Source: an uncultured Alphaproteobacteria bacterium (lineage in GTDB: Bacteria > Pseudomonadota > Alphaproteobacteria > HIMB59 > GCA-002718135). From it: a stretch of 64,000 nt of DNA. Shown here in pieces: positions 48,802 through 55,466 of this stretch. The stretch's first letter is position 1; every line of letters begins with the position of its first letter. The position numbers were made by a program, and so were the translations under genes. The notes beneath the pieces were generated by a model. That model was not told the DNA's origin and searched no databases. It saw only the letters and a list, made by a program, of their open reading frames with translations. The stretch covers positions 38,748-102,747 of the forward strand of contig CACNLM010000005.1 in the NCBI GenBank assembly GCA_902621305.1, read 5' to 3'.

Positions 48802-49323
48802 TTAATTAACTAAAGTTACTGATCTTCTGTTTTGAGCCCATGCTCCATCATTTGATCCGACAACAGCAGGTCTTTCTTTACCATAACTAATAGTTGAAAC
48901 CCTGTCAGGATTTATTCCTAATCCTATGAGATAATTTTTTACAGCCTGAGCTCTTTTTTCACCAAGAGCTAAGTTGTACTCCCTAGTTCCTCTTTCATCA
49001 CAATGCCCTTCGATTGTTACTGTAACATCGCTATTTTGTTTAAGCCATGCAACCTGATCTTGCAGTAACTCTAGAGCGTCTGAGTCTAAATCTGAACTGT
49101 CATATCCAAAAAATACTCTATCACCAACATTAACAATTAAATCTTCTTGTGATCCAGAAACTATTCCACTTCCTGTAGTTTCAGTAATAGTGCCTTCTGA
49201 AGAAACATCGCTTCCAGAACTACTTGAGCCTGATCCAGAAGAGTCAGCTGAATCTTTTGGTGTTGTTGCACAAGCTGCAACAAACAAAACCATAAATATA
49301 GAGATAAAAAACTTGTAAAACAT
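48802..49323 (-). CDS. pal: Peptidoglycan-associated lipoprotein Pal
   Basis: A 173-residue outer-membrane lipoprotein. The signal ends FVAACAT with the lipid-modified Cys at about residue 18. A Ser/Gly-rich linker is followed by the OmpA-like domain: VFFGYDSSDLDSDALELL, VTIEGHCDERGTREYNLALGEKRAQAVKNYL and the conserved DxxxS...R residues for diaminopimelate binding. It anchors the Tol system to peptidoglycan. It is separated from tolB by 101 bases. Confidence 0.96.
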   Translation of the reverse strand: MFYKFFISIFMVLFVAACATTPKDSADSSGSGSSSSGSDVSSEGTITETTGSGIVSGSQEDLIVNVGDRVFFGYDSSDLDSDALELLQDQVAWLKQNSDVTVTIEGHCDERGTREYNLALGEKRAQAVKNYLIGLGINPDRVSTISYGKERPAVVGSNDGAWAQNRRSVTLVN

Positions 49324-49424: not shown

Positions 49425-50741
49425 TTAATGCATCAAAGGAGACCAAGCTGGGTCAGAACCACCTAATGGGGTTATTACTTTTCTTTCATTATAACCAGTT
49501 AAATCAATTGAATATAGACTGGATTCACCCCCTGATCCATCTTCAGCAGTTCTCTCTTCCTTAAAATACATTAAAAATCTACCATTTGGCGCCCATGTTG
49601 GCCCCTCAACATGAAATGATTTTGCAATCATTCTTTCATTTGAGCCATCAACCTCCATAACACCTATATAAAATTGCCCTCCCTCTTGTTTAGTGAAAGC
49701 AATCATATCACCTCTTGGAGACCAGACTGGTGTGTAGTAACTTCCTGCTTCCCTGCTAATTCTTTTAATATTTTTTCCATTATTATCACTTACATATAAA
49801 TGCCTTCGTCCACTTCTATCTGAATTAAAAACTATTTTTTTTCCATCAGGTGAAAAACTTGCAGAAACATCTATTGAAGAATTATTAGTCACTCTTTTTG
49901 AAATTCTCGTTTTTAAATCAAGAATATAAATTTCAGAATTTCCAATTTCTGGATCAGTGTAGGACATAACAATTTGATTACCATCAGGTGAAAAACGTGG
50001 AGCGAATGTCATTCCAGGAAACTCACCTACTATTTCCTGTTTACCTGTTTCAATATCAAAAATGTAAACCCTAGGATTGTTTCTATTTACATAAGACATG
50101 TATGTAATTCTTTGTGAATTTGGAGAGAACCTTGGAGTTAATACGAGGTATGATCCATCTGTTAAAAAACGATGATTAGACTGATCTTGATCCATAATAG
50201 CTAATCTTTTTTGTTTATTTTCTTTTGGTCCTGTCTCAGCAACATAAACTATCCTTGTATCAAAGTAACCACCTTCCCCAGTTATATTTTTAAAAATGGA
50301 ATCTGAAATAATATGAGCAACTCTTCTCCAATTCTTTTCATTAGTCTCATATTTTTTTCCAACTATTTGTTTTTGTTGGAACACATCATACAATCTAAAT
50401 TCAACAGATATTTTTCCATTGTTAGATGAAATTTTTCCAGAAACTAAATGTTGTGCTTTTATTAACTTCCAATCTTCAAATCTAGGTTTATTAGATAGAG
50501 ATTGATTATCTTGAATAAATGATCTTTTATCTATTGGTAAAAAAAGTCCAGACCTTTCTAAATTATCTGAAATGACAGTTGAAATATTTTTACCTACTTT
50601 AGTTAATTGTGAGTTTTTTGAGTATAGTTCTGTTACAGCTATTGGAGTTGGCTTCACGCTACCTTGTGTTAGAGTCACTTCTAAAGAAAAGACTTTAAAA
50701 CTAAAAAATATAAAAAAGGTTATAAAAAAAACTTTTTTCAT
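49425..50741 (-). CDS. tolB: Tol-Pal system beta-propeller protein TolB
   Basis: A 438-residue periplasmic protein. A signal peptide (about residues 1-19) precedes the N-terminal domain, then a six-bladed propeller with repeats such as SPDGKKIVFNSDRSGRRHLYV and SPRGDMIAFTKQEGGQFYIGV. It ends with WSPLMH. It binds Pal and TolA. The stop-start overlap with tolA is one base. Confidence 0.95.
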   Translation of the reverse strand: MKKVFFITFFIFFSFKVFSLEVTLTQGSVKPTPIAVTELYSKNSQLTKVGKNISTVISDNLERSGLFLPIDKRSFIQDNQSLSNKPRFEDWKLIKAQHLVSGKISSNNGKISVEFRLYDVFQQKQIVGKKYETNEKNWRRVAHIISDSIFKNITGEGGYFDTRIVYVAETGPKENKQKRLAIMDQDQSNHRFLTDGSYLVLTPRFSPNSQRITYMSYVNRNNPRVYIFDIETGKQEIVGEFPGMTFAPRFSPDGNQIVMSYTDPEIGNSEIYILDLKTRISKRVTNNSSIDVSASFSPDGKKIVFNSDRSGRRHLYVSDNNGKNIKRISREAGSYYTPVWSPRGDMIAFTKQEGGQFYIGVMEVDGSNERMIAKSFHVEGPTWAPNGRFLMYFKEERTAEDGSGGESSLYSIDLTGYNERKVITPLGGSDPAWSPLMH

Positions 50742-51811
50742 TAGTACCCTTTCATAATACTATAATCGAAAGTAATTGTAAGATTTTTCCATACATCATA
50801 TTTATCTTTTGGAAGTTTTAACGGTGTACATTCTGGGTTTAAGAGAGTTCTCATTGCGCTATCAGTAATCGGTCCATAAAAAGGATTAGTTTTAGCTATA
50901 TTTGTGTCAACAATGCGAATACTATTTGGTGAAACCTTCATATTTTGTAATACTTTAGCTGAAATTGTTACTTTGTCTCCTCTTTGTATAACTGCACCTG
51001 CTGGAGCATTCCAACAAGAAGATAATTGCTGCCTTAACATATCTATTTCAGATATTGATAGCATAATATTGTTATCAGTATCATCTGTACTTTTATTATC
51101 AACTTCTTCGATTTCTTCTTTAACTTCATTTTGAACCATATTTGTTTTTTCATTTCTTAAATCTTTAAGCATTGATGCTATGCTAAAATCTTTCTCAGGT
51201 TTCGGCTTTGGTTTAGATACAGTTTTATCATTTTCCAACTTTGGTTTATCCTTTATGTTTGTTTCAACATCTAAATCCGATTTAACATTTTCATTATTTA
51301 TAATTTTTGGCTTTGGCTTGAGTTTTGGTTTAATTATATCAGTTTTAATTGTTTCTACTTTTTTCTTAACCTCTAAAATTTCCTTTTCTTTGATAACTAC
51401 TTTTTTTGTTTCCTTAACCTCTAAATTTGGAGTTTGTTTCATTTCCAAAACTGGTTGATTTGGATTAGTTTTTTCTTCAATTTCAGTTTTATTTATTTCA
51501 ACATTTTTTTTTATTTCTAATTGATCTGATGAATTAAATTTTTTTTGTTTAGTAATTGTTTCCTTATTTTTATTTTCTGGTTTTTCAGTATCAGATTTTT
51601 TCAAATTGGTATTTTCGTCAACATTAAGTATTTCAATAGGTATTACGTTTGGAACATAGATTTCTTTTGTGGAAAAAAAATTTGGTAAGCCGACCATAAA
51701 TAAAAGGATAATTAAATGTATTAGTGTTGAAAAAATAACTCCTGATGTTTTAGGATTTAAATTTTCAAAAAAGTTTACAATTTTTAAACTATTATAGCTT
51801 ATACGATCCAT
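50741..51811 (-). CDS. tolA: TolA-like cell envelope integrity protein
   Basis: A 356-residue inner-membrane protein with one N-terminal helix (about residues 22-44), a long Lys/Glu/Pro-rich periplasmic region containing KPKLKPKPK-type repeats, and a C-terminal domain with SSCWNAPAGAVIQRGDKVTISAKV and NPECTPLKLP. The layout is TolA, although sequence similarity is low in the linker as usual. It sits between tolR and tolB. Confidence 0.9.
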   Translation of the reverse strand: MDRISYNSLKIVNFFENLNPKTSGVIFSTLIHLIILLFMVGLPNFFSTKEIYVPNVIPIEILNVDENTNLKKSDTEKPENKNKETITKQKKFNSSDQLEIKKNVEINKTEIEEKTNPNQPVLEMKQTPNLEVKETKKVVIKEKEILEVKKKVETIKTDIIKPKLKPKPKIINNENVKSDLDVETNIKDKPKLENDKTVSKPKPKPEKDFSIASMLKDLRNEKTNMVQNEVKEEIEEVDNKSTDDTDNNIMLSISEIDMLRQQLSSCWNAPAGAVIQRGDKVTISAKVLQNMKVSPNSIRIVDTNIAKTNPFYGPITDSAMRTLLNPECTPLKLPKDKYDVWKNLTITFDYSIMKGY

Positions 51812-52240
51812 CTATTGCTCAAGATTTTGAGTAATTAATGCAACTTTAATATATCCTGCTGAATTTATTATGGACATAATTTCCATAATTCTTCCATAAG
51901 CTACTACCCTATCCCCTCGTATATAAATTCTTGCTTCTGTGTTTTGTTCAGTAATAGCGTTTAGTCGAGGAATTAAATTTTCTACTTCAACCTTTGATTC
52001 TCCAATGTAGACTTCTCCGTCTAACTTAACGGTTATCTCAATTGGATCTTTAATATCAGTTAATGCAGTAGCTTTAACCTTTGGTAAATCAACTTTAATT
52101 CCAACCGTTAGAAGAGGTGCGGTAACCATAAAAACAATTAGTAAAACAAGCATAACATCTACAAAAGGTGTAACGTTAATTTCACTCATTTGAGTGTACC
52201 TTTGCTTTTTTCGTTTGTTTAAATTATTTGAAGTAATCAA
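51812..52240 (-). CDS. tolR: Tol-Pal biopolymer transporter TolR
   Basis: A 142-residue ExbD/TolR protein. It has one membrane helix with the proton-path aspartate in INVTPFVDVMLVLLIVFMVTAP, then a periplasmic domain (IYIRGDRVVAYGRIMEIMSIINSAGY). It pairs with TolQ to energise TolA. It abuts tolA and is one base from tolQ. Confidence 0.96.
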   Translation of the reverse strand: MITSNNLNKRKKQRYTQMSEINVTPFVDVMLVLLIVFMVTAPLLTVGIKVDLPKVKATALTDIKDPIEITVKLDGEVYIGESKVEVENLIPRLNAITEQNTEARIYIRGDRVVAYGRIMEIMSIINSAGYIKVALITQNLEQ

Positions 52241-52241
52241 T

Positions 52242-52955
52242 TTATTTTTTCTCTAATTGTCTAAAAAAAATTGTTGAGAATTCATCCATAAATGTTTCCA
52301 AGGATATAAAATATTTTGATAAATCGTTTGAAATTTTATTGTACGCAACTACAGCGGGTATAGCCACAAAAAGACCTAGAGCTGTTGCAAATAGAGCCTC
52401 TGCTATACCTGGTGCAACTACAGCTAAATTAGTATTTTGTGCAATAGCAATAGATTTAAAACTATTCATTATACCCCAAACTGTTCCAAATAATCCTATA
52501 AAAGGTGCAGTTGATCCAGCAGTAGCAAGAAAAGTTAAATTTCTTTCAACATTTTCACTTTCCTTATTAAAAACAACTGTCATTGATCTCATCATTCTAT
52601 CCTTTAAAGAATTAATATCTGAGTTATCACTTTCAAATTGAGTTTTACTTTTTTTCCATTCTAAAATTGCAGCACAAAATAATTTAGATTTTGGATCTGT
52701 CTGATTAAAATTTAACGTTTCATATAAATCTTCAAATGAATTTCCAGACCAAAAAATATCTTCAAATTCTTTTTCAAGTTTTTTTAATTGTCTAATTCTT
52801 AAAATTTTTGAAATTATTACATTCCAAGAATAAAGCGAGGCTAAGATTAATATTATAATTACAGATTTAACTACAAGGTCAGCTTGCATAAATAACGCAA
52901 GCATTGAAAAATCTGGAGCTTCTGTCGATAAATTTGTACTATTAATATCTGCCAT
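52242..52955 (-). CDS. tolQ: Tol-Pal proton channel subunit TolQ
   Basis: A 237-residue MotA/TolQ/ExbB family protein with three membrane segments. It shows FLATAGSTAPFIGLFGTVWGIMNSFKSI and APGIAEALFATALGLFVAIPAVVAYN, the conserved helix 2-3 region. ybgC, which often precedes tolQ, is not present. Instead a small nuclease gene lies five bases upstream. Confidence 0.95.
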   Translation of the reverse strand: MADINSTNLSTEAPDFSMLALFMQADLVVKSVIIILILASLYSWNVIISKILRIRQLKKLEKEFEDIFWSGNSFEDLYETLNFNQTDPKSKLFCAAILEWKKSKTQFESDNSDINSLKDRMMRSMTVVFNKESENVERNLTFLATAGSTAPFIGLFGTVWGIMNSFKSIAIAQNTNLAVVAPGIAEALFATALGLFVAIPAVVAYNKISNDLSKYFISLETFMDEFSTIFFRQLEKK

Positions 52956-52960
52956 AATAA

Positions 52961-53254
52961 TTATTTTTTAATTTTTTCAAGATCACTACTATGAACCATG
53001 ACCCAAAAACCTGGTCTATTTTTTTCACATAATGCTATTACTGGTGTCTTACCCTCTTCCTTGGCAAGCTTTGCAGTATCATCCCATAAACTAATTGCTG
53101 TATGCTTTGCTCTTAATTTACATTCTATGAATAAATCTTCATGAATAACATCCGCTCTTGTTACTTTACCATTACCTCCACTCAAAGGTGTCCTTTTACC
53201 ATTGAAATAATTTGCAACATCTCTTTCTCTTTTTTTCCAGGCTTTATCAGGCAT
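52961..53254 (-). CDS. Small PD-(D/E)XK nuclease-like protein (possible Holliday-junction resolvase type)
   Basis: A 97-residue protein. KKRERDVANYFNGKRTPLSGG, RADVIHEDLFIECKLR and the following hydrophobic strand give an E...D...ExK pattern typical of PD-(D/E)XK nucleases of the Hjc/VRR-Nuc size class. Related small proteins with RTPLSGGN are common in phages and bacteria. It occupies the yebC-tolQ interval, where many proteobacteria have ruvC, ruvA and ruvB. A resolvase role is inferred from fold and place; other DNA-end functions are possible. Confidence 0.7.
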   Translation of the reverse strand: MPDKAWKKRERDVANYFNGKRTPLSGGNGKVTRADVIHEDLFIECKLRAKHTAISLWDDTAKLAKEEGKTPVIALCEKNRPGFWVMVHSSDLEKIKK

Positions 53255-53268
53255 CTATATTCCTTTCA

Positions 53269-54018
53269 TTAGGCTGTGAGTGAAGATAATACATTGTCAT
53301 CAACTTCAAAATTTGATGATACAACTTGAACGTCGTCATTGTCTTCTAAAACTTCAAGTAATCTAAATAGTTTATCTGCTGTATCTTTTCCAATATTTAT
53401 ATTATTTTTACTTTTCCAGATTAAATTTGCAGAGTTAGTCTGACCATATTGTTTAATTAATTTATCATTAAGTTCATGCAAATTATTTTGATCACAGTAT
53501 ATTGAATATTCATTATCATTAATTTCATAATCTTCACTATTATTTTCAATAAGAAATTCTAGAAGCTGATCTTCTTTTACTAAGTTTTTATCAAGAGTGA
53601 TATTTCCAAATCTATCAAAACCAAAACTAACGCTTCCTGTTTCACCCAAATTACCTCCATGTTTGCTAAAAGATGACCTAATCTCTGCAGCTGTTCTATT
53701 TTTATTGTTTGTAAGAGCCTCAACTATTATTGCAACACCTTCAGGTCCATAACCCTCATATCTTACTTCCTCATAATTACTATCTGGGTCATTCCCTTGG
53801 CCTTTTTTAATTGCTCTCTCAATGTTATCTTTTGGCATGTTTAGAGACTTAGCTGAAGCAATTGCAGATCTTAATCTGATATTACTTTCAATATCTTCAC
53901 CTCCAACTTTGACAGCAACAGATATTTCTCTTCCAAGTCTTGAGAATACTTTTGCTCTTTTTTTATCTTGAGCACCTTTACGATGCATAATATTTTTAAA
54001 TTTTGAGTGCCCTGCCAT
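53269..54018 (-). CDS. yebC: YebC/PmpR-family protein (TACO1 homologue)
   Basis: A 249-residue protein starting MAGHSKFKNIMHRKGAQDKKRAKVFSRLGREI. RSAIASAKSLNMPKDNIERAIKKG and EGYGPEGVAIIVEALTNNKNRT are canonical. Members act as transcription regulators or help translate polyproline. It usually precedes ruvC; here it precedes the PD-(D/E)XK gene by 14 bases. Confidence 0.95.
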   Translation of the reverse strand: MAGHSKFKNIMHRKGAQDKKRAKVFSRLGREISVAVKVGGEDIESNIRLRSAIASAKSLNMPKDNIERAIKKGQGNDPDSNYEEVRYEGYGPEGVAIIVEALTNNKNRTAAEIRSSFSKHGGNLGETGSVSFGFDRFGNITLDKNLVKEDQLLEFLIENNSEDYEINDNEYSIYCDQNNLHELNDKLIKQYGQTNSANLIWKSKNNINIGKDTADKLFRLLEVLEDNDDVQVVSSNFEVDDNVLSSLTA

Positions 54019-54097: not shown

Positions 54098-54889
54098 TTA
54101 TGTCTCTTGAATTGGGGTAATATTTTTAGCTAAACCAGTATTGGTATCAATATCTATTAAAGCCCCACATACAGTTATATTTTCAGTAGCAGGTGTAAAT
54201 CTCCCCTCAGCTCTAAACCCCTTAACAAATCCATGTATTGGATTATTTATATCGAAACCAATTATTGAATTATAATCACCTGACATTCCAACATCTGTTT
54301 GATAAGCTGTACCTTTGGGTAAAATAACACTGTCTGCTGTTGGCACATGAGTATGTGTACCTAAAACTGCCGTAACCTGTCCATCAACATAATATCCAAA
54401 AGCCTTTTTTTCAGAAGTTGCTTCACCATGCATATCAATAATTATCGCATCACATGTACTACCTAATTTTTCTTTTTGAAGAAATTCAATTGTACTTTTA
54501 AATGGATCATCTAATGATAAATTCATAAATAATCTTAGCATTACTTGTACTACAATAATTTTTTTTCCATTTAAAAGTTCAAACTTGTAATATCCTTTTC
54601 CAGGAACACCGTCAGGGTAATTCAAAGCTCTGATTATCTTTGGATTTTCTTCAATATAAGAAAGCATATCTCTTTGATCCCATGCATGATTCCCAAGTGT
54701 AAGTAGATCTAATCCGCTGGAAAATAATTCTTCTGCATCCTTTTTTGAAAGTCCATAACCAGAAGTAGAATTTTCTCCATTAGCAATAATCATGTCTGTA
54801 TTGTATTTAGATTTGAGTGTTGGTATAATTTCTTTAATTTTTTTTCGTGACGCCTTACCGACAATATCACCTATAAAAAGAATTTTCAT
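54098..54889 (-). CDS. YmdB-family metallophosphoesterase (TIGR00282)
   Basis: A 263-residue protein from ATG 54889 (MKILFIGDIVGKASRKKI); the track start at 54940 adds 17 residues unlike the family. Metal-binding motifs are GDIVG, ANGENSTSGYG, LGNHAWDQ, IDMHGEATSEK and GTHTHVPTAD. Homologues hydrolyse 2',3'-cAMP. The chosen start overlaps the upstream gene by 23 nt. Confidence 0.9.
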   Translation of the reverse strand: MKILFIGDIVGKASRKKIKEIIPTLKSKYNTDMIIANGENSTSGYGLSKKDAEELFSSGLDLLTLGNHAWDQRDMLSYIEENPKIIRALNYPDGVPGKGYYKFELLNGKKIIVVQVMLRLFMNLSLDDPFKSTIEFLQKEKLGSTCDAIIIDMHGEATSEKKAFGYYVDGQVTAVLGTHTHVPTADSVILPKGTAYQTDVGMSGDYNSIIGFDINNPIHGFVKGFRAEGRFTPATENITVCGALIDIDTNTGLAKNITPIQET

Positions 54890-55466
54890 TGAAGCTATAT
54901 AAATTTTTTTCAGTAATAACATAATCCACTTTAAAATCAAATTTGTCTATTGGTATGTAATCTAACTTTTGTTCTTCATATGCATAGGCTACAGAGATGA
55001 ATCTATGATTAATTTTATTTAAATAAGCAAATGTCCTGTCATAATAACCTCCCCCATAGCCTAATCTATTTCCTTTATTGTCAAAAGCTAAACAAGGTAC
55101 AAAAATTAATTCAGGATTTAAAATTTTATTATTATTTTGAGGTTCTGATATATTCATATGTCCTTTTACAAAATTCTCTTCACTCTTAAATTGCTTAAAG
55201 ATTAAATGACTATTTTTTTTCTCAATTACAGGAAGACATAAAATTTTATTTTTAATAAAGATAAGATTGTTAAGCTCTCTTGTATTTATCTCAGAATTTA
55301 TAGAAATAAAACTAGATACTATATTGATTTCTTGAAAGTTAATTTTTTCAAAAAATTTATTAAACAAAGATAAAGCAAAATGAGATGGTTTATTATTATA
55401 AATCTTATCTCTTATATTTTTTTGTTTTTTTCTAATAATTGATTTTTCATCTTTAATATCATTCAT
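54867..55466 (-). CDS. fau: 5-formyltetrahydrofolate cyclo-ligase
   Basis: A 199-residue folate enzyme converting 5-formyl-THF to 5,10-methenyl-THF. RKKQKNIRDK near the N-terminus and LIFVPCLAFDNKGNRLGYGGGYYDRT are the signature. It overlaps zapA by 8 nt. The 6S RNA gene that lies between zapA and this gene in many bacteria cannot fit here. Confidence 0.93.
   Translation of the reverse strand: MNDIKDEKSIIRKKQKNIRDKIYNNKPSHFALSLFNKFFEKINFQEINIVSSFISINSEINTRELNNLIFIKNKILCLPVIEKKNSHLIFKQFKSEENFVKGHMNISEPQNNNKILNPELIFVPCLAFDNKGNRLGYGGGYYDRTFAYLNKINHRFISVAYAYEEQKLDYIPIDKFDFKVDYVITEKNLYSFNENSFYR

Follow-up and report, generated by a model that had tools for sequence, protein, structure and literature searches.

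The window, i.e., the whole 64,000-nt stretch of DNA analyzed here, encodes on its minus strand (52961..53254) a 97-amino-acid (aa) nuclease of the PD-(D/E)XK type. Our results indicate that this protein is probably a stand-alone, phage-derived resolvase similar to archaeal Hjc, and that after capture into the ruvCAB slot it came to serve the order HIMB59 as its chromosomal Holliday junction resolvase; it may not be the sole resolvase of these cells. The annotation as a putative Holliday junction resolvase is based on a PHROG 2002 profile match, the motif and the predicted fold. A preliminary description of the locus had proposed such a replacement, and this first reading was supported on every point that could be tested computationally.

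The genes of the region are arranged on the minus strand in the order ymdB-like, yebC, nuclease, tolQ, tolR, tolA, tolB and pal-like. The nuclease gene is flanked upstream by yebC (53269..54018; PF01709, PF20772), itself preceded by a conserved neighbor, a ymdB-like phosphoesterase gene (54098..54889; PF13277), whose listed open reading frame (ORF) begins at 54940 with TTG; tolQ (52242..52955; PF01618) forms the downstream flank. For these three genes the domain matches were combined with synteny. Position and synteny served for the assignment of tolR (51812..52240), tolA (50741..51811) and tolB (49425..50741), while the gene of a pal-like lipoprotein with an OmpA-type domain (48802..49323) was assigned from sequence and position. 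The nuclease ORF starts with ATG, ahead of which lies a purine-rich AAAGGA, and it is separated from yebC by 14 nt and from tolQ by 5 nt. No terminator-like sites were found between the operon genes on the coding strand. As had been claimed, the order yebC-nuclease-tolQRAB-pal is present at the window locus, and ruvC, ruvA, ruvB and ybgC are all missing from its yebC-tolQ interval. In RuvC-bearing relatives the order yebC-ruvC-ruvA-ruvB is retained (L134, L136, L147). Synteny comparison with related genomes revealed the same nuclease neighbors in every fetched locus. The window belongs to contig 5 of a genome that has 1.45 Mb and is 87% complete.

Pfam, NCBIfam and PDB sequence searches with the window protein gave no usable match. 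Instead, the PHROG 2002 profile, named 'Holliday junction resolvase', matched residues 3–94 of the nuclease with E=2.5e-10; relatives were matched with E=3e-8 and 7e-9, and a phage copy with E=2e-9. The motif of E, then D, then ECK noted earlier in the 97-residue protein proved to be general: E10, D35, E44 and K46 are invariant in 89 of 89 distinct bacterial and phage sequences. An AlphaFold2 model of medium confidence (mean pLDDT 71.6, with loop 25–32 below 50) showed an H-E-E-E-H-E-E-H fold, including a predicted alpha-beta-beta-beta-alpha-beta core (H2-16, E20-26, E30-37, E41-47, H53-66, E70-76). The nuclease core is thus present in the structure prediction, and together with the catalytic residues it places the 97-aa protein, as modeled, in the PD-(D/E)XK superfamily.

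The preliminary description had pointed to archaeal and phage-type junction resolvases, and besides the PHROG 2002 match several comparisons agree with this. In a fold search against PDB, archaeal Hjc entries made up most of the top 20 matches (E 0.016–0.07, TM about 0.5), with 1gef and 2wcw among the best; tRNA splicing endonucleases were also at the top, scoring as high as Hjc, and no PDB match reached E<0.001. The viral structure matches included annotated phage resolvases. An hhalign comparison with an Hjc profile built from four Hjc/Hje sequences (the Pyrococcus furiosus Hjc sequence being identical to 1gef) gave 63% probability and a pairwise E=7e-5, with the D and ExK residues in register. 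The likeness to Hjc therefore appears in profile-profile alignment and in the fold, but not at the Pfam cut-off: the window protein had no match to PF01870 (Hjc), and 2 of 50 relatives matched it below that cut-off, with E=0.13 at best. For VRR-NUC, the other suggested comparison, there was no Pfam match and one weak structural match (E=0.038). The window protein did not match PF02075 (RuvC) either.

The nuclease shares with archaeal Hjc/Hje (PF01870; 1gef, 2wcw, 1ob8) the aligned D/ExK residues, a conserved glutamate in the first helix, the same predicted core and a size of about 100–120 aa. Unlike them, it has a W6-K7, an LSG and an H38 motif, its C-terminus is shorter, and it is found in bacteria and phages. 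To the resolvases of tailed phages grouped in PHROG 2002 it is similar over nearly its whole length, and marine phage copies are 71–83% identical; however, the HIMB59 copy is a chromosomal core gene at the ruv slot with no terminase neighbor. With RuvC it has in common the operon slot after yebC and, by inference, the task, whereas the folds are unrelated (RNase H in RuvC, PD-(D/E)XK in the nuclease) and the nuclease has no link with RuvAB, which these genomes lack.

RuvABC is regarded as the standard bacterial route for resolving recombination junctions. Using profile searches of genome contigs, on which all genome-wide absences reported here rest, we looked for its components elsewhere in the genomes. 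RuvC (PF02075) was found in none of the 110 genomes of the window's family and was also missing from a genome of the sister family that is closed; at the same time, 269 of 288 genomes in a sample of the class carried it. It was present in none of the five nuclease-bearing genomes of that sample, those of the order HIMB59 included. Likewise, RuvB_C and RuvA_N were detected in 0 of 14 genomes tested, one of them closed, while the positive controls matched. All genomes gave matches to the N-terminal RuvB domain (RuvB_N), which were weak (up to about 35 bits). We rejected these as true RuvB for their low scores and the absence of RuvB_C; apparently they are other AAA+ proteins. The search for an intact ruvCAB elsewhere thus brought nothing against the proposed non-orthologous replacement of RuvC, which is supported by the absence of RuvC and the use of the same slot, but has to be widened: it is the function of the whole RuvCAB, not of RuvC alone, that was replaced. 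RecG remains: of 13 genomes with the nuclease that were searched for it, 10 have a full-length copy. In the others it was partial (the window's genome), a fragment at a contig start (G002) or represented by weak helicase matches only (G127).

The distribution of the nuclease shows that this is by no means an ORF arisen by chance. The gene was present in 91 of 110 genomes of the window's family and in all 10 of those at least 90% complete. Across the order HIMB59, also known as AEGEAN-169 or SAR11 subclade V (PMC10308909), the values were 98 of 107 and 20 of 20, the latter including the closed genome G110. AG-891-K05, one of the relatives of the window's genome, is listed in PMC10734472 as a representative of family GCA-002718135 in this order, which is therefore the window's family; our family f2 is taken to be family HIMB59, the second of the two families named in that paper. 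Among the 288 genomes of the class-wide sample five carried the nuclease, i.e., four of the order HIMB59 and G166, which belongs to a different order and has the gene between the same neighbors. Within HIMB59 the nuclease belongs to the core genome.

Sequence comparisons showed that the gene is strongly constrained. Across genera the nuclease retained 86–94% identity, compared with 63–73% for yebC and 72–76% for tolQ. Synonymous sites were near saturation across genera in all genes, the nuclease being as diverged as yebC and tolQ, while its dN was lower than that of the neighboring operon genes (by about two- to five-fold in comparison with yebC and ymdB). One identical nuclease protein was common to 52 loci, and the median pS in a 29-locus sample of close relatives was 0.23. 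Purifying selection on the nuclease is stronger than on its neighbors, and the gene is an old one, vertically kept under strong constraint, not the product of a recent sweep. The gene first noticed in a single stretch is an order-wide and ancient trait rather than a local oddity. G033, which falls into the same genus as the window, has a divergent nuclease with 72% identity (L022:6023-6301(+)) between ordinary yebC and tolQ, possibly a second replacement in place.

A phage origin had been suggested as well, and it is favored by the relatives found in viral DNA. At least 80 IMG/VR marine phage contigs carry copies of the nuclease with 71–83% identity. In 79 of 79 testable contigs the large terminase gene lies downstream in the same orientation, in many cases with an overlap or a gap of up to 30 nt, and in 54 of the 79 the small terminase gene lies upstream; none of the phage contigs examined contained the host neighbor genes. 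In one of them (L165, 4063-9323, plus strand) the order is terS, resolvase, terL, acyltransferase and portal, with terS, terL and a portal-type connector recognized by PHROGs. We found no cultured marine relative of the L165 group in the phage collection; this group may infect HIMB59. Among cultured phages there were only two relatives of the nuclease, both of gut (Bacteroides) type, with 45–47% identity. The nearest phage copies were L161 for the window's family (83%), L229 for f2 (77%) and L124/L125 for G166 (74–76%). In the tree the bacterial copies occupied four places among the phage copies, and a single bacterial clade was not rejected (AU p=0.16). A test for several independent phage-to-host transfers within PHROG 2002 gave them no support (AU p 0.16–0.31).

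We also read the yebC loci of the remaining RuvC-negative genomes of the class sample. In family f89, judged from genome size and gene content to be probably SAR11 proper, with closed genomes of 1.2–1.3 Mb, yebC is followed by a gene for a phage-type RuvC of PHROG 1770 (L149:998-1495(-), L150:1003-1497(-), L152:2233-2727(+)). This 165-aa protein matched the profile with E of about 1e-36 and clustered with phage proteins apart from RuvC with full support. In family f44, with genomes of about 1.4 Mb, a 168-aa phage-type resolvase of the PDDEXK_15 family (PF24608, E=2e-21; PHROG 244) is encoded between yebC and a tilS-like gene (L144:975-1481(-), L145:1745-2251(+)). Its phage relative (L253, 63% identity) is preceded by genes that, by eye, resemble those of T4 gp47 and gp46. 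Both families are devoid of RuvC and RuvB_C. The two proteins thus resemble the HIMB59 nuclease in the slot after yebC and the accompanying loss of RuvC and RuvB, but PHROG 1770, PDDEXK_15 and PHROG 2002 are mutually unrelated or very distant families, and therefore at least three independent captures occurred at one slot. On balance we favor the view that the ruvCAB slot of compact alphaproteobacteria is a recurrent site, where at least three phage resolvase families were captured independently, each with loss of RuvAB, a motor-independent enzyme making RuvABC dispensable. Such a replacement is not found in all ruv-less alphaproteobacteria, as G264, G320, G334 and G414, without RuvC and RuvB, show no such gene in the approximately 1.5 kb that follow yebC. 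In two closed genomes of about 1.5 Mb from family f97 (G414 and G334; L148 and L151) the stretch of about 1.5 kb beyond yebC lacks any ORF of at least 75 aa and holds no recognizable ruv remnant.

Escherichia coli RuvC acts inside a complex with the RuvAB motor, while Hjc-type archaeal and phage resolvases act alone and need no RuvAB. We propose that a tailed-phage lineage was the source of the gene, which upon capture took the place of ruvCAB in the yebC-tol-pal operon. By analogy with Hjc, the product would be a metal-dependent homodimer that binds the four-way junctions made by RecA; in each subunit E10, D35, E44 and K46 would hold the metal and cut one strand, leaving symmetric, ligatable nicks. 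With a RuvAB-independent enzyme at hand all three ruv genes would become dispensable, so that ruvA, ruvB and ruvC may have been lost together after the capture. Branch migration would then be left to RecG and perhaps RadA. In the phages, its location after the small terminase gene and before that of the large subunit would fit a role in debranching replicated DNA ahead of packaging.

An unlikely alternative is that the phage-origin nuclease has some other housekeeping role, in flap, replication-fork or DNA-end processing, with junctions being resolved by another factor. PD-(D/E)XK folds do act on many substrates, and the tRNA splicing endonucleases, which score level with Hjc, are in keeping with such a role. 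This reading is opposed by the exact replacement of ruvCAB and by the two further lineages that hold other phage resolvases at the same place, which argues for a shared activity; moreover, PHROG 2002 and the Hjc alignment indicate junctions as the substrate. It is highly improbable that the nuclease gene is of a mobile or anti-phage kind, recently arrived and in the operon by chance. Although the phage relatives and the divergent copy of G033, which in its normal context hints at occasional re-replacement, could be cited for it, the gene was found in every near-complete genome of the order with saturated dS and very low dN, there was no PADLOC match, and no mobile genes lie nearby.

The direction of transfer can be questioned too: the gene could be bacterial, and HIMB59 hosts could have passed it to marine phages, perhaps more than once. 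The high identities, reaching 83%, and the fact that the nearest phage subgroup differs between bacterial lineages form a pattern expected of repeated exchange in either direction. We nevertheless regard a bacterial origin as improbable, since in phages the gene has a constant place next to the terminase and a greater diversity, with further kin in Bacteroides-type phages, while in the class sample it is confined to one order and one further genome. Transfer from phage to host thus appears the more economical direction, judging from the sequences, in line with capture of a phage resolvase as the preferred explanation.

It is known that resolvases can be displaced by non-orthologous ones. In Firmicutes RecU is found in place of RuvC, and there are organisms with RuvAB and without a known resolvase (PMC3403352). 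RecU resembles the HIMB59 nuclease as a PD-(D/E)XK-type enzyme standing in for RuvC, but is larger and coexists with RuvAB, whereas HIMB59 has no RuvAB and the slot itself was reused. The recruitment of phage genes for recombination has been reviewed (PMC8987985). Our literature searches returned no report of ruv loss or of such a nuclease in HIMB59/AEGEAN-169 or SAR11; as far as the literature found shows, the repeated, phage-sourced replacement of the whole RuvABC complex at the level of the operon is new. A very abundant order of ocean bacteria appears to rely on a phage-type enzyme of roughly 100 residues without the RuvAB motor. That unrelated phage enzymes were swapped in repeatedly at a single slot amounts to a natural experiment and predicts that any RuvAB-independent resolvase, together with RecG, can replace the complex, which is directly testable in E. 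coli. If the slot is indeed a recurrent site, whole abundant marine clades would resolve their chromosomal junctions by phage enzymes, possibly refreshed via further phage-host exchange.

Two irregular records were seen among the loci. A metagenome-assembled genome titled Gammaproteobacteria bacterium TMED225 (L102, NHJW02000023.1) is mislabeled or mis-binned, as it contains a locus 98% identical to that of HIMB59. On contig 14 of the single-cell genome G073 (L034, L035) the yebC-nuclease region occurs twice as inverted copies, in the second of which the nuclease is fused in frame to a PyrE-like protein (301 aa); this inverted duplicate is probably an amplification chimera.
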